DNA from: a virus
Reading direction: 5' to 3' (one strand)
Length of the DNA stretch: 35,292 nt
Virus record (IMG/VR): IMGVR_UViG_3300025853_000297
Coordinates: 1 to 35,292 of that record
Part shown: piece by piece, positions 5,583-35,146 of the stretch
How positions within the stretch are numbered: position 1 is the first letter of the stretch
Layout of the letters: each line of letters begins with the position of its first letter
Position numbers and translations under genes: made by a program
Notes under the pieces: model-generated
The model's input: the letters and a program-made list of their open reading frames with translations, nothing else
Database searches by the model: none
What the model was told of the DNA's origin: nothing

Positions 5583-8328
5583 GCAACTGTTCGATGCCTT
5601 CTAGAGAGTATTTTTCTTGTAAACTTGGGCGCAACGCAGCTTCAACGGCCTCTACAACTTGCTGTTGTTGCTCTGGTCGAGCCATGGGCCGTGGACTTTC
5701 ATTAAGTTCGTTTTGAAATACGGGCGCTAGATCCGTGGGCCGTGCGACAGGGCGCACGTAATTCATTGGATTACTGTAGTCTGGATCAGAGTAAATGGGG
5801 TTTCGCGGAGCAACGGGTTGGTTCATCACCAACTCCTCTTTGGCGTCTTCCGACAAGCTCTCATCACTGTAAACGTTCAGTCCACCGTGCTTCTGTAGAT
5901 AATCACTGAGACGAGTGCCCTGTTCTGGATTTTTCTTATTATCGGACGGATCATATGCGCCATCTGTCTCCAAAAATTGTCTCAGTCCGTAGTTTCCGCC
6001 AAGATGCGCGACCGCCATCATGCCACTTAAAGTAACGGGTACACCTTTAACCATCTTGCCAATGTACTCGTCCAAGCCGTTATTTGCTATGTAATCAAGC
6101 GTTTTTTGCTCATACCAGTTTTGAAAGGCTTCTTGTAAACCCGCGTTCTTTTTAAATTGGTCGCGTGTAAAGTCACGACCTGTTTCTTCTTTAAATTCTT
6201 CAAGGGTTTCAGGCATTGCCTGAGATGCACCAAGGGCTCCAGTTCTTTTATTTACAGCGTCAAGCGCACCGCCAGAACTTTCTGTGCCGTACAGAGAGCG
6301 CCGGTATTCGGTGCTTGCTGCGGCTACGCCACCCTTAGTCATGTGCCGCGCTAGCTCCGATAGAGATCCAACTCCCTTACGTATTTCGCCGCCCTCGTTC
6401 ATACGCCGCGCTATTTCAGAGAGAGATCCAACTCCCTTACGCATTTCGCCGCCTTCGGCTCTTTTGAATAAGGGCATCAAGTCGGCATCATCTGTTGGGA
6501 TTTCTCCCTGATCTATTCTTACCGTCATTTCCGGAATTAATGAAGTATCGTAAATCACAATATTATTGGGACCTCCACTAACTTCCGTGGTGCCCCCAAC
6601 AACACCCGTAAACCCCGATTCTTCAAAAACTTTTCTTAAATTTTGTTTATCGCCCGATTGTTGATTTGAAAATAATAATCCTTTTTCATCTTTGCGTAGT
6701 GGATTTTTTATTGCCTCCGTGATACGGTCTACCTTTCTAAAAACATCATCAGGATTTTTTGTGTCTATTTGCAGTGTAGTTTCTCCACCCTCATCATAAG
6801 TTGATGTGGGCCTTCGCTTGTAAGAAACCGTAAGAATATCATCTTTTTGTTGAACAACTAAAGGGTTGCCATCGAAGTCTGGCATTGACGACAAAGCGCT
6901 ACTCAACCCCTCTATCTGAGGTTTTGTAAGAGGTTTTTTTAATTTGACATTTAGCATTTCGCTGGTATCAATTTCGGCACTCATTAAACTACCCCGGCCT
7001 CCCACATGCTGCGAAGGATAGTTTAAATTAGTAGAAAAATAAGCGCCGGGACCCGCGGCTCCCATGTTGTAATAATTTGACGATTGTTGCGCTGCGGCGG
7101 CGTCAAATTTTGTGAAGGGCGCTCCGCGAGTGGCGTGAAAAACTTCAACTTTATCCGGTCGCTCTATATTTAAATTACGTGCTAAATTGTCAAGACGACT
7201 ATCTAATTCATTTCCAGCCAAACCGTTACGTTCGTATTCTAATTTTTTTAATCGAAACGTTTCAAATGGAGATCTTTGCATAAACCCTTGTTGTTTAAGG
7301 TAGGCATCTGAATCAAAACTTGAATCGCGGTCCGTCATTTTCATGCCTGCATCAGGCAGTCCATAAACACCAAAAGTATCTTTTCTTGTTTTACTTCCTT
7401 CAACGTAATCCTGCACGTCTTCAACGACAGTGCGAGCGTAAGGATACTCATTGAAACCGTTTCTGTCTTTTACCTCCAGCAAACCTCTTTTTTGAATTTC
7501 TTCAGCCAAAGGAATCATTTGCTCAATGTATTCTTCTTCGCTATACATGCGAAAATCACTTAAAGCTTGAGACAATTCTTCAAGGGATTCATCGGCGGCT
7601 CCCCTTATCTCCTTTGGCCCGATTTCGCTGACAAGTTCTCGCATATCCATTTCTGTGGTTAGGTCGAAATCCCTATGTAATTTTTCTGCTTCAGCTATTG
7701 CTTCATCAAAAGGACGTGACGTGATGTCACCGGGCAGGTTTTCGGACAATTCATCCGCGGCATCGTATGCCGCATTCATTTCATCTCGTAAAACTTTGAT
7801 GTTTTTAGCAAACATGTCGATAGGGTTAATCGAAGGTTTCACACGCTTAACCGCAGCGGGCACTTTTTCCAAAGCTTCTGTTATTGCTTCTGGCGCGAGG
7901 GCCGCGACCCCTGCCGCGGCACCCAACCCCTTTATAAAATCTCTGCGGCTTTTGTCTGTAAGCTCATCTAATGGTTTTGTTTCAGGTCCAGAGACACCTA
8001 AGAACATTTCAGGTATAATTTGAGACGCTTTCTGCCCTAACGCTTTTCCTAAAACAGGCCCAGCTAAAGCGTAACCTAAAGTGCCTACTCCAGCTTCTGC
8101 ACCCTTGCGCAACCTTTCGTCAGTTGGCAAATCCGAATCAAAGGCCTGTCGAGACGCGCCGCCTAAATTGTAAACAATATCTTTCGGAACGTTTAAGAAA
8201 TCGACAACCGCTTCAATTCTTTCAAAACCGGGTCCAAATCTTTGACGCATGGGCGAAGAATCCGTCTGAACCCGTGGTCCGCGATTGTACTCTTCTTCTG
8301 AAGGGGGCGGGACTATCGCGTCTGCCAT
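5530..8328 (-). CDS. Polyvalent virion protein: Tat-like motif, ADP-ribosyltransferase-like domain, lysozyme/transglycosylase-like domain
   Basis: This 932-residue multidomain protein has a hydrophobic, glycine-rich stretch at about 76-112. A twin-arginine-like motif SRRDFIK (127-133) follows, trailed by an alanine-rich hydrophobic segment. A helical linker (170-390) comes next. Residues about 395-600 look like the ADP-ribosyltransferase of phage polyvalent proteins: VFHATRG with H398, GPGAYFSTN (426-434), and a closing NNIVIYDTSLIP (588-599). Two near-identical 20-residue repeats carry GG at 626 and 646, and a third GG sits at 666. Residues about 670-820 resemble a soluble lytic transglycosylase/lysozyme fold, with TESSGGALDAV, TGALGASQAMP and MAVAHLGGNYGLRQFL. 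Such proteins are ejected with the DNA to cut peptidoglycan and modify host targets. The ART part is AT-richer than its flanks, which suggests a swapped-in domain. Its ATG shares a base with the upstream stop. Confidence 0.75.
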   Translation of the reverse strand: MADAIVPPPSEEEYNRGPRVQTDSSPMRQRFGPGFERIEAVVDFLNVPKDIVYNLGGASRQAFDSDLPTDERLRKGAEAGVGTLGYALAGPVLGKALGQKASQIIPEMFLGVSGPETKPLDELTDKSRRDFIKGLGAAAGVAALAPEAITEALEKVPAAVKRVKPSINPIDMFAKNIKVLRDEMNAAYDAADELSENLPGDITSRPFDEAIAEAEKLHRDFDLTTEMDMRELVSEIGPKEIRGAADESLEELSQALSDFRMYSEEEYIEQMIPLAEEIQKRGLLEVKDRNGFNEYPYARTVVEDVQDYVEGSKTRKDTFGVYGLPDAGMKMTDRDSSFDSDAYLKQQGFMQRSPFETFRLKKLEYERNGLAGNELDSRLDNLARNLNIERPDKVEVFHATRGAPFTKFDAAAAQQSSNYYNMGAAGPGAYFSTNLNYPSQHVGGRGSLMSAEIDTSEMLNVKLKKPLTKPQIEGLSSALSSMPDFDGNPLVVQQKDDILTVSYKRRPTSTYDEGGETTLQIDTKNPDDVFRKVDRITEAIKNPLRKDEKGLLFSNQQSGDKQNLRKVFEESGFTGVVGGTTEVSGGPNNIVIYDTSLIPEMTVRIDQGEIPTDDADLMPLFKRAEGGEMRKGVGSLSEIARRMNEGGEIRKGVGSLSELARHMTKGGVAAASTEYRRSLYGTESSGGALDAVNKRTGALGASQAMPETLEEFKEETGRDFTRDQFKKNAGLQEAFQNWYEQKTLDYIANNGLDEYIGKMVKGVPVTLSGMMAVAHLGGNYGLRQFLETDGAYDPSDNKKNPEQGTRLSDYLQKHGGLNVYSDESLSEDAKEELVMNQPVAPRNPIYSDPDYSNPMNYVRPVARPTDLAPVFQNELNESPRPMARPEQQQQVVEAVEAALRPSLQEKYSLEGIEQLLRGTTAEPLLPRQFQRG
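6340..6456. repeat. Two-copy 60-bp direct repeat inside the polyvalent gene
   Basis: Units starting at 6340 and 6400 match closely, including an identical 20-bp core at 6362 and 6422. They encode the two GGE(M/I)RKGVGSLSE(I/L)A copies. The 60-bp spacing keeps the frame and places successive GG pairs exactly 20 residues apart. Confidence 0.85.
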
Positions 8329-9195: not shown

Positions 9196-12100
9196 CTACT
9201 CCATTAAACTGGCAATTCCGCCGCGACGAAAGCTTCGTGGTTGTTGAGTAATCATACTCGAAATTGGATCATTAGGAAACAGCGCAGCGTAAGTTTGTCT
9301 TACTTGCGGATTATTGGTTCCCGCTGCCACTGATGTCTGGGGGGCAGCGGGAAGAGCCGCCTGAGTGGTGGGATTGCCTACAGGCGGTTTTTGGTTTGAA
9401 GCGTCCCGATTCCGTAATAATTCCTGCGCTTTATTTAAAAGCTCTTCGGCAGGGTCCGCGGGGCGTGATCGAGGGGGTCGTCCAAGATTGCGACCAATAA
9501 GTCCCCGTCTTTTACGTTCTTCATACCGCTCTTGAGCCGTGGGGGGCTCCGTCGGAGGTCGGCGATCAACGGCTTCTGCCTCCGTAGAAGTTACTTCCTC
9601 AATAGCGGCAGAAGGTCCGCGGGTAACGGCTCGCACACCGGGCGCACCAGTCGCTGCTTTAATAACTGAACCCGTTGTCTTTTTAACAAAGTTTAGCATA
9701 CGTCGCATAATGGCTTCTTTTTCGTCTGCGCTACGTGGAACGCGCAAAGCTGCCATTAATTCTTCTGGGTTTAAGAGAATGTCCATAAAGGCTTGATTTG
9801 CCTGTAAAAAAGGCACCTCTTGCGTTATCATCTGAGCATATTTGGAACCCGCGGATTCTTCGACCAAACCTTGTGAGCGCCCTCCGGGCAGAATTGATCC
9901 CGCGAATTGACCAAGTCTGGCACCTGCAATTCGCGTATAAAGATCAAACAGCGCAGGAACTTCTATACCTCGCATGTCAGCGCCTTGTGCACCAGACTGC
10001 GCTTGCATAGCCATAATTCTTTCCAACGCAAGCTTCATTGAAGCATGTTGTTCATCGCTTAAAGACCCAGCACTCTTTAAAAAGTTTGCCATTGTCATGT
10101 TGTCGTTATCGGCACCCGGAATTTTTTGGAAAAGAGACTTATACAAGATGCCCGCATCAAAAACGCCGTCACGATTTGCACCTTTTATGTTGCGCTGTGA
10201 TTGGTCAAACGCCCAGTTAATGGTGGTGGCAAGCAGCCCTTCTTGTACATCTTGTAAAGATGGCACACCGTCTTCTGGAAAAGGGATACCAACGCGTTTA
10301 TATGCCTCTCTTGCCGCTTCTTCTGTGGGCAGAGTTGTCATGTTTTTATAAATTACCCTCAGTTGCTCGCTTGGATTTTTTGAAGTGTAGGCGAGACGAA
10401 TTAATTCTGTTGGGTTTTCTGTTAATACACCTTTTCCATTACGCATGGCATATTGGAAAGCAGCCATTGAATCTCGTGTTTGTTTTATTCGCGGTATAAC
10501 GGCTTGCACACGATTTATAAATTCTTGTGGATCTCTAATATTGTCTATTTCCCTTTCAAGATTAGGGAACAATTTTAAGATCATTGCGTTATTAGAAGCC
10601 CAGTTTTTAATATTTTGAAGTTGCCGTTCTTTAATTTGAATAGGGTCAAGCTTAACATTCTCTTCTATTGTACTTGTTGCTCTTCGTAAAACTTCACGCA
10701 AAGATACTTCCAACAAGTCTTGTTGTGTTCCAAGATTTTTTCCGATCTCTGCTAATTCTTCTTCCGACGCACCCCCTGAAATGGCTCTATTCATTAACTC
10801 AAGGTTTGCGTTTTCAATTTGACGAACACGAAGAGCGCTGGCATCTTTGTTGCCAGAAAAAATTGTTATAGCCGCTAAATCAGGCTCTACAACGATACGA
10901 CCTTGACTGTTCTTACGCAACAAGTCTCCACCGAAAGTTTTCTTAAAAAATTGTTGATAAGCCACAGATGCGTCTATAGCATTTTGATAAGCTGGTCCGA
11001 CATCTTCATAACTACGCAAATCATTTAACGCGGCGCTTCGTAAATCAACAGCCCGTCTAAAGAAATCACCGTTCCCACCAACGGCACCAAACCTATCTGC
11101 GGCAATACGCAAGGTTTTACGAAGCGAAATAAGTTCAGAGGCCGGTAGACCGCCCTCGTCTGGAGTTATAGCCATGTTTGTTAATTCGTTTGCACGGCGC
11201 ATTTCAGCGGTGATTGCTTTTTTCTGAAGCGTCAGCAAATTGCCTAATGGACCAGAGGGCGCGGTTGTTTCGCGGCCCGCGACCTCGTCAGCTTCACGAG
11301 AAAGCATATTATCAAGATACTGAATACGTGCCTCTAAAGCATTTTTACGAAGTTTTCCGACTTCGCCTAAGTCTTTCAAACCAACAGTTGCGGCCCGTAA
11401 AGCGTCGATTGCGTCTTGTGTTGATCCACTAGAAAAACTTTCTCCGGTTCTAGCAAGCGCCGCTTGTGCATAGGTTTTAAAGAACTCTTGTGTTTGCCGT
11501 TGCAATTCGTTTCGCGGATCAGAAGCGTCTAATTCTTCTAAATACTGACGTAGTGCGTCCGCGTCCATTTGTAAAATTGCATTTGCTTGCGGCTCTACTG
11601 TGTTTCTCATATAGTCTTGATTTGAAACTTCAATTAAATTATATTGCTGATCCAAAGCCAAGTTGTCTAATTCATTTACGTCCAAAGCTTGGCCTGCTAA
11701 AGCTTCTCGCTCTATTCGCAGCGCCTCGTCTTGATAAGAGTTTCCAAAAACATCTCTAGTTCCCGCCAATTTATTACGAGCCTTATCAAAAGCATCGCGA
11801 TATTTGTTGGGCCGTTGTGTTTCAATCACCCTCGCTAATTTTTCTAAATTCTCTTGAGTTGGCGCAACCGCGCCATTAATGATTTCAAGATCCGCCTCGG
11901 ATAACAACCTATTGTAAGTGTCAAACCACTCCTCTCCTGCCGCATCTCCCAGAGCGTCATTAAGTTTTTTTGTTGCAGGGGTGATGCCATCAAAGGGGTT
12001 TGGTGCCGCGGCAAGCCCAAGACGTTCTTTTATGGTGTTTACAACTTCGTTTACGTTTCTGAACTCAGCCTCACCCATTACAGCAAGTAAGGTGGACTTT

Positions 12101-13923
12101 TCGTTTTGCATTTCACGAAGCATCGCGTCCCAAGCTTCAACAATGTTTGGCACGTCAGAAGCGGAATCTGGAATTACGTTTCCGTCTGAATCAAATCTAT
12201 AAAACGTATCGTTCCTAATCGTCTGATCTACGTCTTCCCAAGCTTTTTGTTGAATGTTTTTGAAAACGTTTTGAACATTAAGTTGCGCTTTTGCAATTCC
12301 TTGGCCCAGAGCTTCTGAAGCTTGTTCTCCGCCCTCTGGATAAACTTTGCCAACGGCAGCAACTGCGCTTTGTACCGCTTGGTCCATGCGCTTTTGAATC
12401 AAAAGTTCAATGCGAGCGGCTTGAATTTCATTGGCAATTTTTAAAAGTTCAGGGTCGCCGGTTCCCCTGAGTTCGTTAACCAGTGCAGTTTGGGCGTTCA
12501 TGCTTCTTCTAAAGCTATTATTGAGAAGCTCACCGCCCTCATTCTCCGCCATCATTTTCATAACTTGAGCGTCAAGGTTTGCTAAAGCAGGACTTTCTAC
12601 AAATGCACTTGAAAAGGTGGTTTGAGGAACAGTTTTGCCTTTTTTGTCTTTAGTCAAAAACTCTGGCTTAATGTTCCCATTATCGTCTAAATAAGTTTCT
12701 TCTAAAGCTTTTAAAAGATCTGCAGGGTTTTCACCACGCTCATTAATCAAATTCAATATATACTGTATTTGTTCGCCTTTAACACGTGCTTTCCTACCAA
12801 GTAAATCAAGTCCTTGGCCCGCTGCCAGACTGGCTTTACGTGCTGCAACATAATTTTTTCCGGCCTCAACTATTGAAGGTATGAAGCGCAAAGTACTTAA
12901 ACTGGGGGCCATGCCTCCCAGCATTTCGCCAGTAATCATTTTAACTTCAGACCGTGGATCCTGACCCGCTATTGCTGTTGTTGCTCCAAACGTGGCAGGA
13001 ATTTGAGCACTCTCAACGCCGAGCGCAAGAACTTTACCGGGCAAAGTTTCTGCACTTCTGTACATTTTTCCGCCCGAAATAAGCAGGTCTTCCGCGGCAC
13101 CAATTAAACGTGGAAAACGTAGTGCTTTGCCCTGCAGATACTTTGTCAGATATGGATTATTCTGTATCTGTTCTTTTGTGACAGGGCCGTAAGCAAGTCT
13201 ATCTGGTAATGTTTGTAAATATTTTGCCTGTGTAACACGCGCATTTGGTGCAAGCGTTGGATTAAATATAAAAGGAAGCGCCGTTCCCGTCGCCTGCCAA
13301 ATTTTTAAAGCGGACTCTGTTTCCGGCGTCAAAGGAATGGTGTCTTCAATTTGATTCATTGTCAAATCGCCCACAGCATCTCCCGCCGTGCCACCTAGTA
13401 CAGAACCTGCAAGAAAACCAAGACCTCCAAGAACAACTTGACCGGGCAGTCCAAAGGGAGTACCTGCCATAACGCCGTATCGTGCACCCTTTGCACCACC
13501 AAGCATAGCACCGCCGCCTTCAAGAGCGCCAGAAAAAAAAGCTTCTTTACGGGATGGGACGCCGGGGTCACCATATTGTTTTAGATTTGTAAAATAACGC
13601 AAAACGTCTTCATTGCGCAGACCCTTTCCCGCTTGACTAGCGGGTATGTTTAAAAACTTTAACCCTTCGGCAGTTCCCCTTTGCACGTCTAATGGATCGA
13701 ACATACCCGCAAATTCAGATCTGTTGTTAAGTATTTTCAACGTTTGTTGGGCAAGATAATCGGTTACTTTTTGTTTGTTTTCAAAAACCTCGTAAGCCGT
13801 TGACAACTCACCGGGTTCCCACTCCACAAAAACTCCTGCATCTATAAGATTTTGCTTGTGCGGCGGCATGTCCGTTGGAGCAAAAACTGGTTCGTTTGAG
13901 GTGCGTCTACTACGATTTGCCAT
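9196..13923 (-). CDS. Giant internal virion-like protein with glycine-zipper segment and long helical body
   Basis: This 1575-residue protein is the largest in the window. Residues about 131-186 form a hydrophobic, glycine-zipper segment (GGGAMLGG, VVLGGLGFLAGSVLGG) able to insert into a membrane. The middle, about 380-1400, is almost entirely charged helix with coiled-coil character. The C-terminal 150 residues are proline/arginine-rich and disordered, then end with YAALFPNDP and a terminal FRRGGIASLME. I see no catalytic motif. Size, membrane-active segment and position fit the large ejected core proteins of short-tailed phages (compare T7 gp15/gp16), which form a DNA conduit through the envelope. 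That is inference. Its ATG overlaps the upstream stop by one base. Confidence 0.75.
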   Translation of the reverse strand: MANRSRRTSNEPVFAPTDMPPHKQNLIDAGVFVEWEPGELSTAYEVFENKQKVTDYLAQQTLKILNNRSEFAGMFDPLDVQRGTAEGLKFLNIPASQAGKGLRNEDVLRYFTNLKQYGDPGVPSRKEAFFSGALEGGGAMLGGAKGARYGVMAGTPFGLPGQVVLGGLGFLAGSVLGGTAGDAVGDLTMNQIEDTIPLTPETESALKIWQATGTALPFIFNPTLAPNARVTQAKYLQTLPDRLAYGPVTKEQIQNNPYLTKYLQGKALRFPRLIGAAEDLLISGGKMYRSAETLPGKVLALGVESAQIPATFGATTAIAGQDPRSEVKMITGEMLGGMAPSLSTLRFIPSIVEAGKNYVAARKASLAAGQGLDLLGRKARVKGEQIQYILNLINERGENPADLLKALEETYLDDNGNIKPEFLTKDKKGKTVPQTTFSSAFVESPALANLDAQVMKMMAENEGGELLNNSFRRSMNAQTALVNELRGTGDPELLKIANEIQAARIELLIQKRMDQAVQSAVAAVGKVYPEGGEQASEALGQGIAKAQLNVQNVFKNIQQKAWEDVDQTIRNDTFYRFDSDGNVIPDSASDVPNIVEAWDAMLREMQNEKSTLLAVMGEAEFRNVNEVVNTIKERLGLAAAPNPFDGITPATKKLNDALGDAAGEEWFDTYNRLLSEADLEIINGAVAPTQENLEKLARVIETQRPNKYRDAFDKARNKLAGTRDVFGNSYQDEALRIEREALAGQALDVNELDNLALDQQYNLIEVSNQDYMRNTVEPQANAILQMDADALRQYLEELDASDPRNELQRQTQEFFKTYAQAALARTGESFSSGSTQDAIDALRAATVGLKDLGEVGKLRKNALEARIQYLDNMLSREADEVAGRETTAPSGPLGNLLTLQKKAITAEMRRANELTNMAITPDEGGLPASELISLRKTLRIAADRFGAVGGNGDFFRRAVDLRSAALNDLRSYEDVGPAYQNAIDASVAYQQFFKKTFGGDLLRKNSQGRIVVEPDLAAITIFSGNKDASALRVRQIENANLELMNRAISGGASEEELAEIGKNLGTQQDLLEVSLREVLRRATSTIEENVKLDPIQIKERQLQNIKNWASNNAMILKLFPNLEREIDNIRDPQEFINRVQAVIPRIKQTRDSMAAFQYAMRNGKGVLTENPTELIRLAYTSKNPSEQLRVIYKNMTTLPTEEAAREAYKRVGIPFPEDGVPSLQDVQEGLLATTINWAFDQSQRNIKGANRDGVFDAGILYKSLFQKIPGADNDNMTMANFLKSAGSLSDEQHASMKLALERIMAMQAQSGAQGADMRGIEVPALFDLYTRIAGARLGQFAGSILPGGRSQGLVEESAGSKYAQMITQEVPFLQANQAFMDILLNPEELMAALRVPRSADEKEAIMRRMLNFVKKTTGSVIKAATGAPGVRAVTRGPSAAIEEVTSTEAEAVDRRPPTEPPTAQERYEERKRRGLIGRNLGRPPRSRPADPAEELLNKAQELLRNRDASNQKPPVGNPTTQAALPAAPQTSVAAGTNNPQVRQTYAALFPNDPISSMITQQPRSFRRGGIASLME

Positions 13924-16900
13924 TAGTCTTTGCCCCCAATTCTATCATTAGCTTCGTCAATGAGTTTTGTATCTATATATCCTTCGTCGGGTAAGTGATG
14001 CATAAGATCTAAGAATGTATCAATTGCAAAGTTCTGTTCTTCCGCACGTTTAATGGTCTGTGCATTAGTTGAACTACCTATTGTTTTATAGTTCTGATCT
14101 CGCTCAATAAGGAGTCGTTTTCGGAGAACAAGCAGTTCAGCAATAGCTGCTTCGGGGTTTTTAAGGAATTGCTCTGTGCTTGGGATTGATTTTCCTAGAC
14201 GAACTTGTTCCCCCTCACTGATACGAGGCGTTGCAGCCAGAGCAATACGAACAGAAACGTTTAGTGCGTCAACCCATGCCCGTGCCTGAACAGTGTCTTC
14301 AAACATGTTTCGCCAACCCCATGAACCGGGGGTTAAACTTGTTAGGGCATTGGCAAATTCCCTAAGCTTGGCATAAGGACCTATACCCTCGCGGGCCATA
14401 GCCGCCATATCAATGCTTCTTGCGATAAGATTTGGACCCCCCAAATCTCCAAACATTTCTTTAACGCCTTCTTTTCCTAAATTTTCTTCCAACTTTTTGT
14501 ACGCTTCGCTACCGTGCATTTTGATATATGCTTCGGCATTTACTGCCGCTAATTTCATTCGCATTTCTGCCGCTCGTCTAGCGTTTTTGACACTTTCGTA
14601 AGTATTGTTTTCGCCTAAAATTATAGCGTTCTGATACTCTGGCAACGTAAAGTCTATGGGTTTGCCGTTTACATCGTAAAAGTTACCGCCCATGAAGTTA
14701 ACTATTTGAGGTGTTCCGTCTGCAGTTTTAAGCAATGTTTTTGCGGAGCCTGTGAGTTGTGACCGCACCGCCGTCGGATCTTTTAAACTCAAAACTTGTT
14801 GATTTGTGAGTTCCACAAAAGTATTTGCAGGAATTTCTTGACCGTCTACGACAATTGACTTTGTAGTAACAAAGCCATTTGTTTTTTCTGCGGTATCCTT
14901 ACTATATAGGCCAGATTCAACATACCCCTCGTCAAGCAAACCATTTATTACAATTCTTGCACCGTTCTCATTGGTGTTAATTGAAACCGTTTCTCCGGTA
15001 TCTGGATTGGTCAAATTAACCATAGTAATTTCTGGGATCATTCCAGCCCGCAACATTTGCTCATCTTTGTCCAGCGCCAAAAATTCATCCATCGTCATGT
15101 TGTACTTCAGCAAGAAGTCTTTGTCCGTAAGAACGGGAACACCCATCATTGCTCTGTACAAGTTCTCATCTTCTTTGCGGAGTTCTTTTAGCTCTTCAAG
15201 CATAAAGCCCGTTTTTTGATAAACGTCCTTTTCAGTTATAACCGCTGTGTTGATATTTGCAGGAGCCTTTTTCTGCAAAGCTATAAGCTCATTTTTGTTA
15301 ACAAGCTGCGGACCTTTGGCGTAGAACAATCCATCATCCAGCGTAATGTCGTCTGTAAGGTCAATCAACTGCATTTGACCTTCACGCTCACGCATCAAAG
15401 CTGTTATACTTTTTTGCTCAGCCATGTAGGCATCAACCAAAGTTCTGTCTGTAGACCATCCTGAATAACTTGCAAAATCGTCTTCCGAAGGACCTTCTTC
15501 TATAAGTTCTCTGAACTTTTTATTACCTTCTTGAGAGGATACAAAAACCTCTTTTCTTTCGTAGTAAGGTTCGCCCTCAATTGGAGTGACTTTCCTGAAG
15601 ACAACTTGTGTTTTAGGATCTTCAAATTGTTGATCGAATGCCGCGCTGTTATCGGTCCACAAACCGTCTTCCCCGACGTTTGCAGTAAGCCATTGTTTAC
15701 CCAGCGCAGAATTAGTATCCACCATTTGAGAGTCGGAGCCGTCTTTTTTGTAGAAAGTTTGGTAATTGGAATTTTGTGGTCTAGGAGCAAACTGCACTCC
15801 TTTTTCTAAGAAATCGGCAAATTGCACATCGTTAGCTGCAATCACGCTTCCCGCTTTCAAATCATACGTTTCACCATTTATTCTTACTTTTTTGTCTGCC
15901 TGAACTTCATAAAACTCGACAGGTAAACCTTTTTGTTCAATTTCTACTGTCAGTCTTTTTGCTGTTTCCGCTGCAGTAATAAACGGTTTTATTGTCTCCT
16001 TAGTGTAATAACTCTTTGAATCTTTTTGATATTGCGCAAAGTCTTGTGGATTATTTTTGTTGTAGACCTTGTAAACTGCAGGAAGTCCGGCTGCGTCTAC
16101 CGTGTAAAGAACAAGTTCGTCCGGATTTGTCGGCTTCATTGTTTTAAGAGCTTCTTCTAAACCCTCCGCTGCTCGCGTTTGCGCAGACGCTTCTGGTACT
16201 GCCAAGCCAAAAGCCGTGGCCCGTGCTTGTTGATCTAGGTTCTTCAGTTCTTTTTCTGCAGCCCGTACTTGAGCCGCCCGTTGAGCAAATCTATCCGTTA
16301 ATTGAGTACGATTTAACGCGTTTGCCAACCTTTCCGCAACAGACCCGCCTTCTGTTTCTCCTGCAAAGGCAAGCCCCGCGCCAGCAAGATCAAACATTAA
16401 TTGACTGCGAGCCATTTGACGATCTTTTTCAAATTCCGCTCGGCGCTCTTCGTCAGTGCCATATATTCCTTGCGCCAAAGGCAAAAGCCCTTCGTAGATG
16501 CCGGGAACCCGACTCACCATTGTCGTCGGAACGCTAGAGTTTCCCGTTGGCGGCGTTCCATCTTGAAACTTACGGACCATTACGGGCCCACCCCGTCTAA
16601 AATTTTCGGGTGGAGTGCTGCCCGCCCCCTGCATCATAAGAGCACCTAGACCTTGGTCCATGCCTTGGTCCATTTGCGTATCTCCCGCAACAGCCTGCAT
16701 AAGTTCCCCTATGCCACTGTCCATCGCGCCTTGTTGCGTCATCATAATAGCGGGTTGCGTCAGAGCCAAAACGGATTCAGGGGTCTGCATTGCGTCGCGC
16801 TCACCAACAAGACCTGCAAGCTCTTGGTAGCGGGCGTCTAGCGGCATGTCATTGCCGCGGAGCGCGTTAATTGCACCTTCTACGTCTGTGGCAGCATCAA

Positions 16901-17099
16901 TGCTCTCTTGTGTGCGAGCCGCAATCTCCTGCCCTAGCATCTCTCCTTCTTGCTGCGCACTTTGAGACATGTCCTGCGGCATGGGTTCTGCGGGACCACC
17001 CATCTGACGAAACAAGGGCCGTTGCATGACGCCGCCGCCAGCTTTGCCAAGAATTTGTCTTTGCACGTGTTGTGGCAGCGCTCTAAAACCTTCGTTCAT
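13923..17099 (-). CDS. Large virion protein with N-terminal GG-motif module
   Basis: This 1058-residue protein has an N-terminal module that I recall from many marine phage virion proteins: LPQHVQRQILGKAGGGVM (8-25), a second GG (34-35), then INALRGNDMPLDARYQELAG (76-95) and TPESVLALTQP (106-116). NFRRGGPVMVRKFQDG (166-181) follows. A hydrophobic helix LMFDLAGAGLAFAG lies near 235, then an alanine-rich coiled coil. The remainder (330-1058) is a long mixed region without recognisable enzyme motifs. Expected role: internal or tail-associated structural protein, perhaps ejected with DNA. It starts one base before the stop of the 691-aa gene ends on its left side and shares a TAATG junction with the 1575-aa gene downstream. 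Confidence 0.75.
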   Translation of the reverse strand: MNEGFRALPQHVQRQILGKAGGGVMQRPLFRQMGGPAEPMPQDMSQSAQQEGEMLGQEIAARTQESIDAATDVEGAINALRGNDMPLDARYQELAGLVGERDAMQTPESVLALTQPAIMMTQQGAMDSGIGELMQAVAGDTQMDQGMDQGLGALMMQGAGSTPPENFRRGGPVMVRKFQDGTPPTGNSSVPTTMVSRVPGIYEGLLPLAQGIYGTDEERRAEFEKDRQMARSQLMFDLAGAGLAFAGETEGGSVAERLANALNRTQLTDRFAQRAAQVRAAEKELKNLDQQARATAFGLAVPEASAQTRAAEGLEEALKTMKPTNPDELVLYTVDAAGLPAVYKVYNKNNPQDFAQYQKDSKSYYTKETIKPFITAAETAKRLTVEIEQKGLPVEFYEVQADKKVRINGETYDLKAGSVIAANDVQFADFLEKGVQFAPRPQNSNYQTFYKKDGSDSQMVDTNSALGKQWLTANVGEDGLWTDNSAAFDQQFEDPKTQVVFRKVTPIEGEPYYERKEVFVSSQEGNKKFRELIEEGPSEDDFASYSGWSTDRTLVDAYMAEQKSITALMREREGQMQLIDLTDDITLDDGLFYAKGPQLVNKNELIALQKKAPANINTAVITEKDVYQKTGFMLEELKELRKEDENLYRAMMGVPVLTDKDFLLKYNMTMDEFLALDKDEQMLRAGMIPEITMVNLTNPDTGETVSINTNENGARIVINGLLDEGYVESGLYSKDTAEKTNGFVTTKSIVVDGQEIPANTFVELTNQQVLSLKDPTAVRSQLTGSAKTLLKTADGTPQIVNFMGGNFYDVNGKPIDFTLPEYQNAIILGENNTYESVKNARRAAEMRMKLAAVNAEAYIKMHGSEAYKKLEENLGKEGVKEMFGDLGGPNLIARSIDMAAMAREGIGPYAKLREFANALTSLTPGSWGWRNMFEDTVQARAWVDALNVSVRIALAATPRISEGEQVRLGKSIPSTEQFLKNPEAAIAELLVLRKRLLIERDQNYKTIGSSTNAQTIKRAEEQNFAIDTFLDLMHHLPDEGYIDTKLIDEANDRIGGKD

Positions 17100-29480: not shown

Positions 29481-30971
29481 CTATGCTGCTATGTCATCCC
29501 AGCCCGGAGTTTGAGATGGTGATTCATCACTCCAAGAAGGGGTAGAAGATGGTGTTATTGGAGTATAACTCGGATCTTGATTTGGAACAATAGGACCCCA
29601 AACAAGAACCTGTGCTACTTCACCTGTTCCAGAAACTCCGTCTGGAAACACATTTGATTTTGCCGTGACTGTAACCGATCCCACCTGACTTGTTGCAGAG
29701 ACACCCGTTACATCAACATCTACAGGAAGAGAAACGACAACTGACCCAACCTGACCTGTACCAGAAACGCCTGTGGCAGAAATATTAGCATCTGCTGTTA
29801 CAGAAACCGAACCCACACCCCCTGTAGCCTCAAGCCCCGTTACGGAAACATTTGCCTCTGTAACAACTGTTACAGAACCTACTGATCCCGTAGCTGATAA
29901 TCCCGTGACAGGAACATTTGCTTGAGCGTCAGCCGTGGCTGTTCCTACTTCGCCAGTTCCAGACAACCCGGTAACTGAGGTATTTGCTTTTGCAATTATA
30001 GTTACTGATCCAACAGATCCAGTAGCCTCTAAGCCAGTTACATTTACGACTTCATTTTCATGAACGATTACACTGCCAACTTGTCCTGTAGCTGAAAGAC
30101 CAGTTACATTTACGACTTCATTTTCATGAACGATTACACTGCCAACTTGACCCGTGGCTGAAAGACCAGTTACAGAGACATTTGATGCAGCATTTACTGT
30201 AACTGAACCAACAGATCCTGTGGCTGATAATCCAGTTGCGGGAACATTAGCTTGAGCATCAACGTTAACTGTTCCAATTTGTCCAGTTCCAGATAATCCA
30301 GTGACTGAAGCATTTGCTTCCGCGATAACAGTAATTGAGCCAACTGATCCAGTAGATGACAAACCAGTGACTGAAGTATTTGCTTCCGCGATAACAGTAA
30401 TTGAGCCAACTGATCCAGTGGCTGATAGTCCTGTAACATTTATTGTTATGCCTTGAGCTACAGCCGCGCTTCCAACTTCACCAGTGCCAGATACACCTGT
30501 GACAGAAACGTTTGATTCTGCATCAGTGGCTACTGATCCAACATTCCCTGTTGAAGACAGCCCTGTAACAGAAATATTTGCGTCCGCCGTTGTGGTAACA
30601 GACCCAACATTCCCTGTTGAAGACAGCCCTGTGACAGAAATATTTGCGTCCGCCGTTGTGGTAACAGACCCAACACTTCCTGTTCCAGAAACACCTGTAA
30701 CTGAAACAGTTTGTGAAATTGATGCAGTTACAGAGCCTACTTGACCTGTGGCACTTAGTCCTGATGGAGAAACATTAGCTTCCGCAACAACTGTTACAGA
30801 TCCCACACTGCCTGTAGCTTAAGACCCGTAACCAGGAACATCACTTGCTCCTGATACAGTAACAGAACCAACTTGGCCTGTAGCAGCAACTCCCGTTACT
30901 GTTACAGGAAGTGGACTGCTCCAAGCCCCTTCAGACCATGTGCCTCGCCCCCAACCTGCAATAAGTGCCAT
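29481..30971 (-). pseudogene. 22-residue-repeat fibre-like protein, split by two compensating one-base changes
   Basis: From the ATG at 30971 the gene reads 50 codons (MALIAGWGRGTWSEGAWSSP start) and meets TAA at 30819-30821. The same frame then continues open to 29481 for about 20 copies of a 22-residue unit of the type VTGLSATGSVGSVTV. The unit register shows the cause: an extra G follows codon 46 and a G is missing in codon 51. Removing and adding these gives VTGLEATGSVGS exactly 22 residues after the previous VTG. The intact protein would be 496 residues with a C-terminal tail rich in P, S and W (PSYTPITPSS, PGWDDIAA). A restart from GTG at 30806 is possible. It is probably a fibre or adhesin accessory next to the S74 fibre. 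Confidence 0.75.
29600..30905. repeat. About 20 tandem 66-bp repeats
   Basis: The coding repeat has a period of 66 bp (22 codons). Three neighbouring pairs are nearly identical at DNA level: 30034/30100, 30300/30366 and 30541/30607, each offset by exactly 66 bp. These are the marks of recent tandem duplication. Other units have diverged at third codon positions. Confidence 0.85.
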
Positions 30972-31424: not shown

Positions 31425-31721
31425 TCACATTCTCCTTATGAGTTCCGCAAGGTTTGAATGCCCTGCATCTGTAAGTGCATTATATACCGTAGTTCGATCA
31501 CTTTTGATAGCCTCTCGTAAATAAAACTCGACGACTTTTGTAATCTGAAGCTCATAAACACGAGCTTGATCACGAATTGCAGGCGGTGCTGAGTCAGAAA
31601 CACTTACAATTTTCTGAACGCACCGCTGTGCAATTTCTTCAGGCGTAAAGCCTCTTTTGTCCGTTGTATGAACCTCAATGCCAAAATCTTCTGGCAACCC
31701 TATATCCAAAGCAGGTATCAT
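31425..31721 (-). CDS. Small conserved phage protein, unknown function
   Basis: The 98 residues begin MIPALDIGLPEDFGIEVHTT. They continue with FTPEEIAQRCVQKIVSVSDS and a helical AIRDQARVYELQITKVVEFY segment, and end LAELIRRM. No enzymatic motif or membrane helix is visible. I recall close relatives in seawater phage genomes, always among head-tail connector and fibre genes. It overlaps the 215-aa adaptor-like gene by four bases, and the ribosome site of the next gene lies in its last codons. A structural or assembly role is inferred. Confidence 0.72.
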   Translation of the reverse strand: MIPALDIGLPEDFGIEVHTTDKRGFTPEEIAQRCVQKIVSVSDSAPPAIRDQARVYELQITKVVEFYLREAIKSDRTTVYNALTDAGHSNLAELIRRM

Positions 31722-32365
31722 GTTTTCTCCCTAATAATAAGACCTGTGCGATACGCATCAGTAACCTCTTGAGACTCTCCGAAATTCTTAACACGAGAGA
31801 GTGCCTCAGTAAAACGCTGTGTATAATTCTGTATTAAATCGCCTTCACCCTTCATAAACGTATATGCTTCAATAAGAGATCCATACAACAAAGCTACCGA
31901 TGCATTTGTACTTAACCATGTTGTTCCACTTCCCGCGCCAGCCGTTAGTGATGCTGGACGATAAAAATAATGAAGTTCAACAGCATAATTAGAATCGGGC
32001 GTTGGACCTAAAATTAAGTTATCTATATCAAATTGCGCATAATAACGAGGGGCACCAGTAGTTGCGCCATTTGGGTTAAAAGACTGAATAAAGTTTACAT
32101 CTTTAAACAGCATAAACTCTTTATTACTACCATTCGTAAACGAAAGACTAAATGGGGCAAGATAATCTGTAGGAAGCGCAAGATATTGATTGCTTGCGGT
32201 TAAAGTTCCGCTTTGATTTTTGCGAAACACTTCTAACTGAGCAATTTTTAAAATACGCTCCTCTGCGTTTTTAATAAATATATTAAGATTGTTTACAAAG
32301 GTTGTCTCTGTGTTCTCAGTGTAGTCTTGAATTGCAGTTTTTAGTTCATCGTATGTAAAACTCAT
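31718..32365 (-). CDS. Tail tubular protein A / adaptor-like protein (T7 gp11 type)
   Basis: The 215 residues start MSFTYDELKTAIQDYTENTE. A helical NNLNIFIKNAEERILKIAQL region follows, then a beta part with LALPTDYLAPFSLSF and VELHYFYRPASL, and a helical end (FTEALSRVKNFGESQEV). This helix-beta-helix arrangement with the LPxDYL strand is typical of gp11/gp4-type ring proteins that connect portal and nozzle in short-tailed phages. It is coupled by four-base overlaps to genes on both sides. The call is by motif memory and context. Confidence 0.72.
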   Translation of the reverse strand: MSFTYDELKTAIQDYTENTETTFVNNLNIFIKNAEERILKIAQLEVFRKNQSGTLTASNQYLALPTDYLAPFSLSFTNGSNKEFMLFKDVNFIQSFNPNGATTGAPRYYAQFDIDNLILGPTPDSNYAVELHYFYRPASLTAGAGSGTTWLSTNASVALLYGSLIEAYTFMKGEGDLIQNYTQRFTEALSRVKNFGESQEVTDAYRTGLIIREKT

Positions 32366-32667: not shown

Positions 32668-33336
32668 CTACCCCGTCCTATAATATTCGTATTTCGGAAC
32701 AACGTTGAAGGATGACCGATCACGGTCCTCCGTTGCAGCGCGTTCAAACTCTTCTTCGTACACAGCCTTCAGCATTTGTACACGATTTGGTGCCCGCTTC
32801 AAAGCAATGTAGTAGGCCAAGCCTGCCGCCAAGCAGGGATAGAACCGAAACGGCATATCCACGGTATTAGTGTAAATGTCCGCGTCATCCATACGGGTCA
32901 ACGCGTCGTAAATCACAACATCCGTCGTGTTTTCGGGCGTAGGCCAGATTTTTAGGTTTGGAGTGAGCTGACGATCCAAGAAAAACTGGTTTGGTCGGCC
33001 CTGTGTGGTTTTTGTCGGAATTGTAAGGTATTCATCCCGGCTCAAACGCTCCAACGAATAGTCTGTACCGTTACGACGCACAATAACCGACAGAACGTCG
33101 ATTACATCTGTACCCAGATCGTATTCGCCGTCGCCAATCGCTAGTGTGACTGTGCGTTGTTTGATTGTCCATTGGTTCAAGCCGCGGTTAGCCCAATCTG
33201 CAAGCAACAGATTAAGCGAACGCTTTGCCGTCTTCAGGTCGTAACCAGTACGAACCTCAAGACCACAACGCTCGAACGCTTCTTCGACGTAGTCAGCGAC
33301 GTCTAGCTCAAAATCTGTGCTTCCTGATGTAGCCAT
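32668..33336 (-). CDS. Adaptor / packaged-DNA stabilisation-type protein (P22 gp4-like)
   Basis: The protein is 222 residues from MATSGSTDFELDVADYVEEA. The helical start (EEAFERCGLEVRTGYDLKTA), RSLNLLLADWANRGLNQWTI, a beta part with GEYDLGTDVIDVLSVIVRRN, and the terminal helix (AVYEEEFERAATEDRDR) match head-completion adaptors that bind the portal after packaging. The frame stays open for 46 more codons upstream, but only because it reads the repeat gene in the wrong frame. The ATG at 33336, one base after that gene's stop and preceded by AAGAAG, is the sensible start. Role inferred by family resemblance. Confidence 0.78.
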   Translation of the reverse strand: MATSGSTDFELDVADYVEEAFERCGLEVRTGYDLKTAKRSLNLLLADWANRGLNQWTIKQRTVTLAIGDGEYDLGTDVIDVLSVIVRRNGTDYSLERLSRDEYLTIPTKTTQGRPNQFFLDRQLTPNLKIWPTPENTTDVVIYDALTRMDDADIYTNTVDMPFRFYPCLAAGLAYYIALKRAPNRVQMLKAVYEEEFERAATEDRDRSSFNVVPKYEYYRTG

Positions 33337-33337
33337 C

Positions 33338-33499
33338 TTACTTCTTCTTAACCATGCCACCGCCACGCATTTTCTTAACCATGCCGCCGCCACGCATTTT
33401 CTTAACCATGCCGCCGCCACGCATTTTCTTAACCATGCCACCGCCACGCATTTTCTTAACCATGCCGCCGCCACGCATTTTCTTTGGACGCATTGCCAT
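33338..33499 (-). CDS. 53-residue basic repeat peptide: five copies of KMRGGGMVK
   Basis: From ATG at 33499 the reading is MAMRPK, then five perfect copies of the nonapeptide KMRGGGMVK, then KK and TAA one base before the adaptor ATG. A strong GGAG ribosome site lies eight bases before the ATG, inside the end of the 205-aa gene, which it overlaps by 44 bp. The peptide is about 30 percent Lys and Arg, with no acidic residue, and has 15 glycines. DNA or RNA binding, virion packaging or a partner-binding tag are possible. The repeated GGG-hydrophobic unit echoes GG motifs in the large virion proteins. I recall similar MRGGG peptides in marine phages but know of no function. Confidence 0.8.
   Translation of the reverse strand: MAMRPKKMRGGGMVKKMRGGGMVKKMRGGGMVKKMRGGGMVKKMRGGGMVKKK
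33347..33481. repeat. Five tandem 27-bp repeats
   Basis: Five units of 27 bp follow each other without spacers and differ only by C/T at one glycine codon (GGC or GGT). All lie in the 53-residue peptide gene. The near-identity implies recent expansion or strong homogenisation. Confidence 0.95.
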
Positions 33500-34073
33500 C
33501 TTTCAATCTCCTATACATTTGATGTCGTAGTTCAAACAGTTCTTGAGCATTGTAGTCGTCTTCATACGGCTTATAATAGCCTCTTTTTGCAAGCTTGTCT
33601 GCGCTTTCTTGCAATTTGGACAACCGTTGCACAAAAATCATAGCATATTCTTCTTCAACCAACGCCAAAAAGTCTTCATTAGCGTCTGCAACAAACTCAT
33701 TTGGCTCATCATGTGGGTGAAAGCCCATCAACCAAATATCTTTATCAATGAACACCCCGTCAGAAATGCATTTATTAAGATTAAACAGGTAATCATGGAA
33801 ATCCGCAGGATCTTTTTCAAAAGCCAAGTCCACTATTATTGCTAGATCAAAATTATCGTCAAATTGACTGATTGTAGTGTATAAACACTGATAATTTTTC
33901 TCATATTTGAACATAAGAGATACCTTGTCTTCTTTCCACGCCTTTTCGGCAAAAGGACAAGCGGGCAAACCCCCAAAATAGTGCGATTTTTGTTCTAAAA
34001 CCTCTTTAGACCACTGCCAAATCTCTCGAACAATTTTTTGCTCTAGCTTTGGTTCGTAAAATTCTATTCGCAT
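33456..34073 (-). CDS. Conserved phage protein of unknown function
   Basis: The protein is 205 residues from MRIEFYEPKLEQKIVREIWQ. Characteristic segments are HYFGGLPACPFAEKAW (conserved Cys), QFDDNFDLAIIVDLAFE (a possible beta strand with acidic residues) and LMGFHPHDEPNEF with two His. The C-terminal half is helical. I recall similar proteins in marine phages but none with a known function. The His/Asp/Cys set could be a metal site, which is a guess. The ATG at 34073 shares a base with the stop of the upstream gene. The last 44 bp overlap the repeat-peptide gene in another frame. Confidence 0.75.
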   Translation of the reverse strand: MRIEFYEPKLEQKIVREIWQWSKEVLEQKSHYFGGLPACPFAEKAWKEDKVSLMFKYEKNYQCLYTTISQFDDNFDLAIIVDLAFEKDPADFHDYLFNLNKCISDGVFIDKDIWLMGFHPHDEPNEFVADANEDFLALVEEEYAMIFVQRLSKLQESADKLAKRGYYKPYEDDYNAQELFELRHQMYRRLKDGNASKENAWRRHG

Positions 34074-34453
34074 CACACACTCACCGATCCCGACGTATAC
34101 TTACGGCGATTTGAAAGAACTTTTCCACAACCACGGGCCACTATTTTGCCGTTTTTTTGCTGCGGGGGCTTTCTTTTTGCTTTTTGGTTGACGATTTCGC
34201 CGCCGCCTGCGGCAAATTTGACTTCCGCGGCTTTGGTGTTTTTGACGAAGGTTTTGCCTTTTTTGCCTTCGCGCTTTTTCTTTGCGGCGGTGGACTTTCT
34301 TTGAGACTTGGTGAGGGATCTGGCTTTGGCTGCGGGGAGACATCGGTCTGGGTTTTGCTTGTCTTTGGAAGTACCGCACTCACCAGCGATGTTACCGCTT
34401 GAATCAATCCTGACCCAATTCTGATCACGCCATTTTTTAAGTTGACGGCCCAT
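34073..34453 (-). CDS. Small lysine-rich conserved phage protein
   Basis: The 126 residues begin MGRQLKKWRDQNWVRIDSSG, then AGECGTSKDKQNPDRCLPAA, a pattern I recognise from cyanophages and marine phages. A very basic stretch with SLTKSQRKSTAAKKKREGKK follows. The C-terminal third has AAGGGEIV (GGG at 83-85) and ARGCGKVLSNRRKYT, a C-terminal signature that I recall from other phage small structural proteins. The protein may bind DNA or the virion. It has no membrane segment. The gene abuts the 76-aa gene upstream. Confidence 0.78.
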   Translation of the reverse strand: MGRQLKKWRDQNWVRIDSSGNIAGECGTSKDKQNPDRCLPAAKARSLTKSQRKSTAAKKKREGKKGKTFVKNTKAAEVKFAAGGGEIVNQKAKRKPPQQKNGKIVARGCGKVLSNRRKYTSGSVSV

Positions 34454-34684
34454 TTAAGACTTCTTTCCTTTAGCTTTTTTAGCATAGTTTGGATCCTTAC
34501 AGTATTTGGAAGCCGCCATGTTCGCGTATGCACTTGGATAAGTGTCAAAGGTGCGCTTCGCCCATGCTTTTCCGGCAGGGCAGATTTTACTACCTTTACT
34601 TTTAGAAGAAGCTTCTCCACCTTTTCGGAAATAAGTTAAACCCCTTGGCGTTTTATTGCTTATTGAGCGCTTGGACATTGCCAT
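34454..34684 (-). CDS. Small basic conserved phage protein with CPAGKAWAKRTF motif
   Basis: The 76 residues contain YFRKGGEASSKSKGSKICP (GG at 22-23, C35), then CPAGKAWAKRTFDTYPSAYA and ASKYCKDPNYAKK (C62). About a quarter of residues are Lys or Arg. The family is frequent in marine phages, usually beside the DUF6321-like gene, and has no assigned role. The ATG at 34684 has GGAG seven bases upstream and overlaps the end of the membrane-protein gene by 32 bp. Confidence 0.78.
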   Translation of the reverse strand: MAMSKRSISNKTPRGLTYFRKGGEASSKSKGSKICPAGKAWAKRTFDTYPSAYANMAASKYCKDPNYAKKAKGKKS

Positions 34685-34856
34685 AGGCTTTCTCCATCTC
34701 TAACTTTATGTACTCAATTTGAGAAGCCATCACTTCGGTGCGCTTGTCCACAGATATTAGTGTTTCTGTAGTCCAAGCCGCCCACGCATAGGTTACCGCC
34801 CCAATAAGCCCTAAACTCGTAGACAAAAGAATAATTATTAATGGGCGGTCTAACAT
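34653..34856 (-). CDS. Small membrane protein with N-terminal helix and coiled coil
   Basis: The protein is 67 residues from MLDRPLIIILLSTSLGLIGA. A single transmembrane helix (about 6-28, ending YAWAAW) is followed by a charged helical tail (VMASQIEYIKLEMEKAYGNV). The layout resembles the 77-aa protein in the lysis block, but the sequence is not obviously related. ATG at 34856 is chosen; a TTG two codons earlier is the alternative. It overlaps the upstream basic protein gene by seven bases and the downstream gene by 32. Confidence 0.68.
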   Translation of the reverse strand: MLDRPLIIILLSTSLGLIGAVTYAWAAWTTETLISVDKRTEVMASQIEYIKLEMEKAYGNVQALNKQ

Positions 34857-35146
34857 TTCCAACGCTTTCTAGCTTGTCTCAATCTTGAATTAGGATCTTT
34901 GGCTGCTTTTGGAAACTTTTTCATCTGTCCCGCAGAACGAGCACAGAATGACTTGCGGCGTTTTGCGTCCTTACTTCCTTCTTTAACCTTACCGGTTACC
35001 GCTGTCTGTAACTTTGAACCCGGATTTTTCTTGCGATACTCCTTTACGCCCTTTTCTGTCATACCCGCGCCAGACTTCGTCTTGCGGTAATTAGCCCCTT
35101 TGCCAGAGGTGGTACGACGTATGGGTTTCTCCTTTTTGGCAGCCAT
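34850..35146 (-). CDS. DUF6321-like basic phage protein
   Basis: The 98 residues show the conserved pattern GKGANYRKTKSGAGMTEKGV, RKKNPGSKLQTAVTGKVKEG and RRKSFCARSAGQMKKFPKAA, closing DPNSRLRQARKRWKC. I know this as a small protein family (DUF6321) very common in cyanophages and other marine phages, of unknown function. It is extremely basic, so nucleic-acid binding is plausible. It shares a base with the stop of the partial gene upstream (TAATG). Confidence 0.85.
   Translation of the reverse strand: MAAKKEKPIRRTTSGKGANYRKTKSGAGMTEKGVKEYRKKNPGSKLQTAVTGKVKEGSKDAKRRKSFCARSAGQMKKFPKAAKDPNSRLRQARKRWKC

Follow-up and report, generated by a model that had tools for sequence, protein, structure and literature searches.

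A short repeat gene beside the head-tail adaptor gene of aquatic phages encodes a strongly basic protein with a possible role in neck assembly

The DNA analyzed here is a virus contig of 35,292 bases (IMG/VR record IMGVR_UViG_3300025853_000297), whose full length is referred to as the window. On the minus strand, positions 33338–33499 hold a frame of 53 amino acids that translates to MAMRPK, five units of KMRGGGMVK and two lysines, followed by the stop codon. We list this frame as the repeat gene on the basis of its translation, the location of all 80 kept relatives upstream of an adaptor gene and a bias toward silent changes. At the DNA level the five units form a tandem array on the same strand (33345–33484), for which Tandem Repeats Finder reports a period of 27 nucleotides, 5.2 copies and a match of 97%, and the sole difference among the units is a silent exchange of GGC and GGT at one glycine codon. 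The ATG is preceded by the ribosome site TATAGGAGATTGAAAG, and the site as mapped 5′ of the start, TATAGGAGA (33500–33521, minus strand), lies within the coding sequence of a 205-aa protein, where it is read as YRR codons. An AGGAG or GGAG site precedes the gene in all 78 relatives whose upstream sequence is long enough, and in 72 of them the spacer is 8 nt; this conservation may partly come from the overlapping 205-aa gene because its YRR codons contain the site. The stop codon TAA ends at 33338 and the ATG of the adaptor gene starts at 33336, which leaves one base between them, and the product has a computed net charge of +19 in 53 residues and a pI of 12. The five perfect nonapeptide repeats on the minus strand, the strong ribosome site, the stop one base before the next ATG and the basic product had all been proposed in the first-pass annotation and are thus borne out. 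Its placement of the gene between the 205-aa gene and the adaptor gene holds for the adaptor side; the 205-aa frame ends at 33456, 44 nt inside the repeat gene.

The adaptor gene (32668–33336, minus strand) encodes an acidic protein of 222 aa (pI 4.8) that matches Pfam SU10_adaptor with an E-value of 9.6e-16, and its tblastn matches in phage records include several proteins annotated as adaptor or tail adaptor. The acidic protein upstream, with a length of 205/206 aa (33456–34076, minus strand), belongs to PHROG 28122 of unknown function, and its gene overlaps the repeat gene by 10–47 nt in 65 of 70 measurable relatives. Three small basic proteins follow on the minus strand between 34073 and 35146, namely a 126-aa GTSKDK protein with the segment FAAGGGEI (34073–34453, PHROG 23735, net charge +26), a 76-aa YPSAYAN protein with the segment YFRKGGEA (34454–34684, PHROG 27331, +16) and a 98-aa DUF6321 protein (34850–35146, Pfam E-value 3.8e-13, +27). 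Small basic proteins of structural operons are already familiar as a kind. This order is shared among the relatives: at the 38 repeat loci whose upstream sequence extends over 2.6 kb or more we found the 205-aa gene in 38, the GTSKDK and the YPSAYAN gene in 37 each and the DUF6321 gene in 19, and the 101-aa and 215-aa genes downstream were present at 68 of the 68 repeat loci with at least 1.9 kb of downstream sequence. CRP-902, HTVC027P and ct7L0027 have other genes at the position before the adaptor. A second SU10_adaptor match occurs in the same operon at 31718–32365 with an E-value of 1.5e-24, compared with 9.6e-16 at 32668–33336, and two such proteins in one operon suggest a duplicated adaptor-like fold.

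A search of viral contigs with the 53-aa protein yielded 298 relatives. We retained the 80 best, and every one of these 80 is located upstream of an adaptor homologue. All 80 belong to the adaptor-companion repeat family, which we define by the presence of the repeat units in a gene that precedes an SU10-type adaptor. The gap to the adaptor gene is 0–8 nt in 75 of these 80 best relatives and 157–652 nt in the other five. The reverse comparison was anchored on the best 80 of at least 599 adaptor relatives, of which six with too little upstream sequence were dropped (L019, L029, L052, L053, L069, L070), so that 74 loci with enough upstream sequence, or with the gene itself shown, could be evaluated. 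A repeat gene was detected by filter in 66 of them, and at L076 inspection by eye revealed a divergent one upstream of the adaptor. L077 and L078 did not pass the filter and were left out of the reading of single loci, and five loci (L050, L054, L066, L073, L079) show none. In 47 of the 80 loci the gene has an MAM start and abuts the adaptor directly. In some phages of this adaptor-anchored set another gene stands between the repeat gene and the adaptor, with gaps of about 160 and 680 nt.

Another tiny basic protein of the form GLYANI...KMRKPGxKGAPTAKAF is encoded before the adaptor at the loci L007, L018, L033, L036, L040, L050 and L054. It corresponds to PHROG 16028 and has tblastn matches in 81 phage records, many of them from cyanophages and pelagiphages. 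The idea that this protein replaces the repeat gene was rejected for most cases, in which the repeat gene is found about 160 nt further upstream; at L050 and L054 the GLYANI-type protein is present and the repeat gene is absent.

The 27-nt unit is without a stop codon in several frames, and therefore alternative ORFs of 268, 58 and 108 aa also run across the array. Since several frames are open, the openness of the frame proves nothing by itself, and the proof of coding is the pattern of silent changes. Over same-length pairs from the 67 distinct coding sequences among the 80 hits we obtained a pN/pS of 0.134, a value lowered by the collection of this set by protein similarity. The less biased adaptor-anchored set, with 45 unaligned same-length pairs from 30 sequences, gave 0.45 in the repeat-gene frame, compared with 1.24 and 1.34 in the two remaining sense frames; the antisense frames gave 1.05, 0.55 and 1.30, of which the frame with 0.55 mirrors the same third positions as the repeat-gene frame, and the adaptor gene reached 0.134 on the same 45 pairs. 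In addition, nine different DNA versions encode one and the same repeat protein. A DNA repeat that was born by slippage and is open by chance would account for the several open frames and for the in-frame changes in copy number, as 27-nt units slip in frame by nature. It leaves unexplained why the silent-change bias is confined to the repeat-gene frame among the sense frames and why start codon, ribosome site and position are kept in dozens of distinct sequences, and we consider it highly improbable. On these grounds the chance frame was rejected, and the repeat frame is close to certain to be a real protein-coding gene under selection on the encoded protein. The frame is kept while the number of repeats varies, the pattern that the first-pass annotation had suggested looking for in related phages.

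Under a strict pattern the 80 kept relatives have 3–8 units per protein. A count of 287 GG cores in 68 proteins revealed flanking methionine in 260, an adjacent arginine or lysine in 259, valine after the core in 231 and a terminal lysine in 261, and because these flanks recur around the GG cores, the unit is conserved beyond its charge. The number of units changes in frame among relatives, as in the pair L031 and L032, which are 97.9% identical over 4.3 kb and differ by four versus three full KMRGGGMVK units, each followed by one KMRRGGAVK unit; their lysine tails also differ by one residue. In the pairs L059/L060 and L016/L017 the N-terminal parts are wholly different and the units are retained, with adaptor genes that are 97–98.5% identical over the first 600 bases. 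The C-terminal parts vary as well and include CAVRNA endings, a VADLRKMAKDKGYKLVK mini-domain and, in some proteins, segments that resemble EF-hand/dockerin modules but score weakly in Pfam, below the threshold. An AlphaFold2 model of one family member was of low confidence throughout (mean pLDDT 61.5), with pLDDT values of 55–57 and no secondary structure in the repeats and a helix in the C-terminal mini-domain alone; this weak model is compatible with, and no proof of, repeat units that would be mostly disordered.

The 53-aa protein had no match in Pfam, PHROGs, NCBIfam or PDB (0 families and 0 PDB sequences), with the reservation that a low-complexity filter may hide BLAST matches. The typed repeat variants gave weak EF-hand/dockerin-like or unrelated matches and nothing else in Pfam and PHROGs, blastn and tblastn searches of phage records with the repeat gene or protein returned no match beyond its own record, a result weakened by the same filter, and a search of solved structures was uninformative for both the adaptor and the small proteins. 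Literature searches found no paper on the repeat gene with the strings RGGGMV and MRGGGM and none on DUF6321, and the part of PMC9599517 available to us contains nothing on the repeat gene. Within the searches made, the repeat-gene family appears to be undescribed.

The first-pass annotation had called the gene hidden and likely to be missed by length cut-offs, which is overstated. A frame of 53 codons exceeds the minimum length of common gene callers, and phage DSL-LC04 has an annotated counterpart at this position, a hypothetical protein of 75 aa (WJZ48052.1, record OR003939.1). Like the repeat gene, it immediately precedes the adaptor and clusters with DUF6321-like and YPSAYAN proteins in similar order, and its product is GG-rich and ends with KPKKMMGGGMMKGYKMGGSACK; unlike the repeat gene, it has few irregular units and carries the hypothetical label only. 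The DSL-LC04 record is metagenome-assembled according to the part of PMC10611076 available to us. A second counterpart, HTVC023P gp53 (QGZ17682.1, 121 aa, L156:4629–4994), is also encoded directly before an adaptor homologue and has an EF-hand-like segment followed by MKKPGGAV, as in the EF-hand-bearing repeat proteins; it differs in being without a repeat array, and a kinship is suggested by position and modules alone.

It had further been claimed that the core of the repeat occurs in the large virion proteins. We counted the motif [FMY]-[RKAS]-x-GG-x-[VIMA] in ORFs defined by a simple longest-ORF rule instead of by annotation. FRRGGIA, FRRGGPV, MAQGGLM and YADGGPV occur in large virion-side proteins of the window, where the tight pattern, which was set after viewing the window and some relatives, gives 4 copies observed versus 0.6 expected; a looser pattern is weakly enriched in the window with 15 observed versus 9.7 or 8.4 expected (about 8–10). 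Sets of records were compared after removal of homologues (69 of 170 and 5 of 71 large proteins). Eleven records have a repeat or GG-rich gene; among them are DSL-LC04, G017, HTVC023P, Pag-Yong1 and G015, where the gene is divergent or was assigned by position and eye. In these 11 records we found 19 motifs versus 2.80 expected, an about 7-fold excess that was reached in 0 of 300 shuffles. The 53-aa query had no match in W01–W06, G012, G015, G016 and G017. Four records counted as without the gene, in the sense that none was seen or matched and with G012 judged on fragments, gave 14 motifs versus 1.50 expected, and the control phages T7, lambda, N4 and P22 showed no enrichment (2 versus 1.11). 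CRP-902 taken alone has no motif in its large proteins. A location within 60 aa of a protein end applies to 11 of the 19 motifs in records with the gene (4.0 expected, p = 0.0001) and to 4 of 14 in records without it (3.7 expected), which are not end-placed. As the motif is equally enriched in large proteins of phages in which the repeat gene was not seen, it is not tied to this gene, and the proposed co-occurrence was not found, with HTVC027P and ct7L0027, where no such gene was seen at the adaptor, equally enriched. The claim of a shared core is therefore correct insofar as a related GG motif exceeds the shuffled expectation; its specificity to the repeat gene is not supported, and many aquatic phages share the GG core.

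Two proteins of the window were compared with their homologues. The 1058-aa protein (13923–17099, minus strand) carries FRQMGGPA and FRRGGPV in its N-terminal part, and all four non-identical homologues preserve the form of both motifs. The 1575-aa protein (9196–13923, minus strand) ends with FRRGGIASLME; FRRGG is kept in two of seven non-identical homologues and the other five end with EGIGSLI. Its homologues L170–L176 share FPNDPISSMI-like segments followed by a FRRGGIASLME-like or an EGIGSLI sequence, in the manner of two alternative terminal tags. Further repeats in the window are a 60-nt tandem duplication in a 932-aa protein (6345–6457), which repeats a GGExRKGVGSLSE-type segment, and a 441-aa protein (29481–30806) that consists largely of a repeat of about 21–22 residues (VTGLSxTGxVGSV...) with 66-nt tandem DNA repeats. 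The same short [FMY]xxGGxV core is present in tail protein H of lambda (853 aa, YATGGYV), but such segments of tape-measure-like and ejection-type proteins are single copies in large proteins and not cationic arrays. A GG-cleaving maturation protease of the kind found in adenovirus was also considered; it had no library match among the proteins scanned, which cover part of the window.

Several functions can be considered for the product, which probably helps virus particle assembly. A strong rival to the reading we prefer, ranked second and in our opinion possible rather than likely, is a protamine-like protein whose cationic units would coat or bridge the packaged DNA or its last end at the portal, with the glycines providing flexibility. 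Small, strongly basic DNA-condensing virion proteins encoded beside structural genes are known from eukaryotic DNA viruses; no need for such proteins is known in tailed phages. The likeness is one of size, charge and gene position, with the class as named in the part of PMC6163548 available to us. The strong positive charge of the repeat protein and its clustering with three further strongly basic small proteins argue for DNA binding, as does the C-terminal ADLRKMAKDKGYKLVK helix of some variants. We take this helix to recall small DNA-binding helix motifs. However, the conservation of the GG-M-V core goes far beyond charge, and related motifs in large proteins are found in part beside acidic residues (YADGGPV, FAEGGEV).

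Alternatively, the short frame could mainly serve translational coupling, handing ribosomes on from the 205-aa gene to the adaptor gene, with a peptide that matters little. The overlap on one side and the gap of 0–8 nt on the other would be well explained in this way, but selection at the protein level, added modules such as the EF-hand-like segments and the retention of the gene where another gene parts it from the adaptor make this rather improbable. We give a similarly low chance to a late peptide that rides in the structural operon and is directed at the host by binding its RNA, nucleoid or membrane: the protein is small, cationic and contains methionine and valine, and its N-terminal parts change fast in the pairs described above, whereas the strict neighbourhood with adaptor genes and the resemblance of its motif to segments of large virion-side proteins speak against this reading.

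Our first choice, held tentatively, is that the protein may act as a multivalent strip of a docking motif in the assembly of the neck with its adaptor and ejection proteins, because the unit is conserved beyond charge and the gene is located beside that of an acidic adaptor. The repeat gene is part of the capsid-to-tail operon and would be translated in tight coupling with the 205-aa gene and the adaptor gene, and its product is a small, strongly basic and probably mostly disordered array of 3–8 copies of K-K-M-R-x-G-G-M-V-K-K. During head completion the units might attach to one common acceptor in the neck, for which the acidic adaptor/portal ring and the DNA end inside this ring are candidates. 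Tape-measure-like and ejection-type proteins would use the same kind of site for their [FMY]-x-x-GG-x-V segments, and the number of units and the added C-terminal modules could tune this docking strip. Docking is in line with the excess of the motif in large proteins. It is weakened by the fact that this enrichment needs no repeat gene, by the faint signal of the looser pattern and the definition of the motif after viewing the data, and by the phages with an interposed gene. Five adaptor loci are without the repeat gene, which is therefore not essential to all of these phages. A broader and less probable version, which we regard as speculative, assumes that many unrelated virion-side proteins of aquatic tailed phages carry a common, portable peptide tag of roughly the form [FM]-[RKA]-x-GG-x-V, with the repeat family as a free multivalent strip of this tag that would load, queue or cap those proteins at the neck with a strength set by the number of repeats.

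With this analysis the neck region of aquatic phages gains a widespread gene family that none of the libraries searched contains, and a short motif is seen to recur in the large virion-side proteins of these phages. The pair L031 and L032, with its difference in unit number in near-identical DNA, represents a natural dose experiment. Should the motif prove to be a docking tag, it would offer a handle on the recruitment of ejection and tape-measure-like proteins in phages that are hard to culture.
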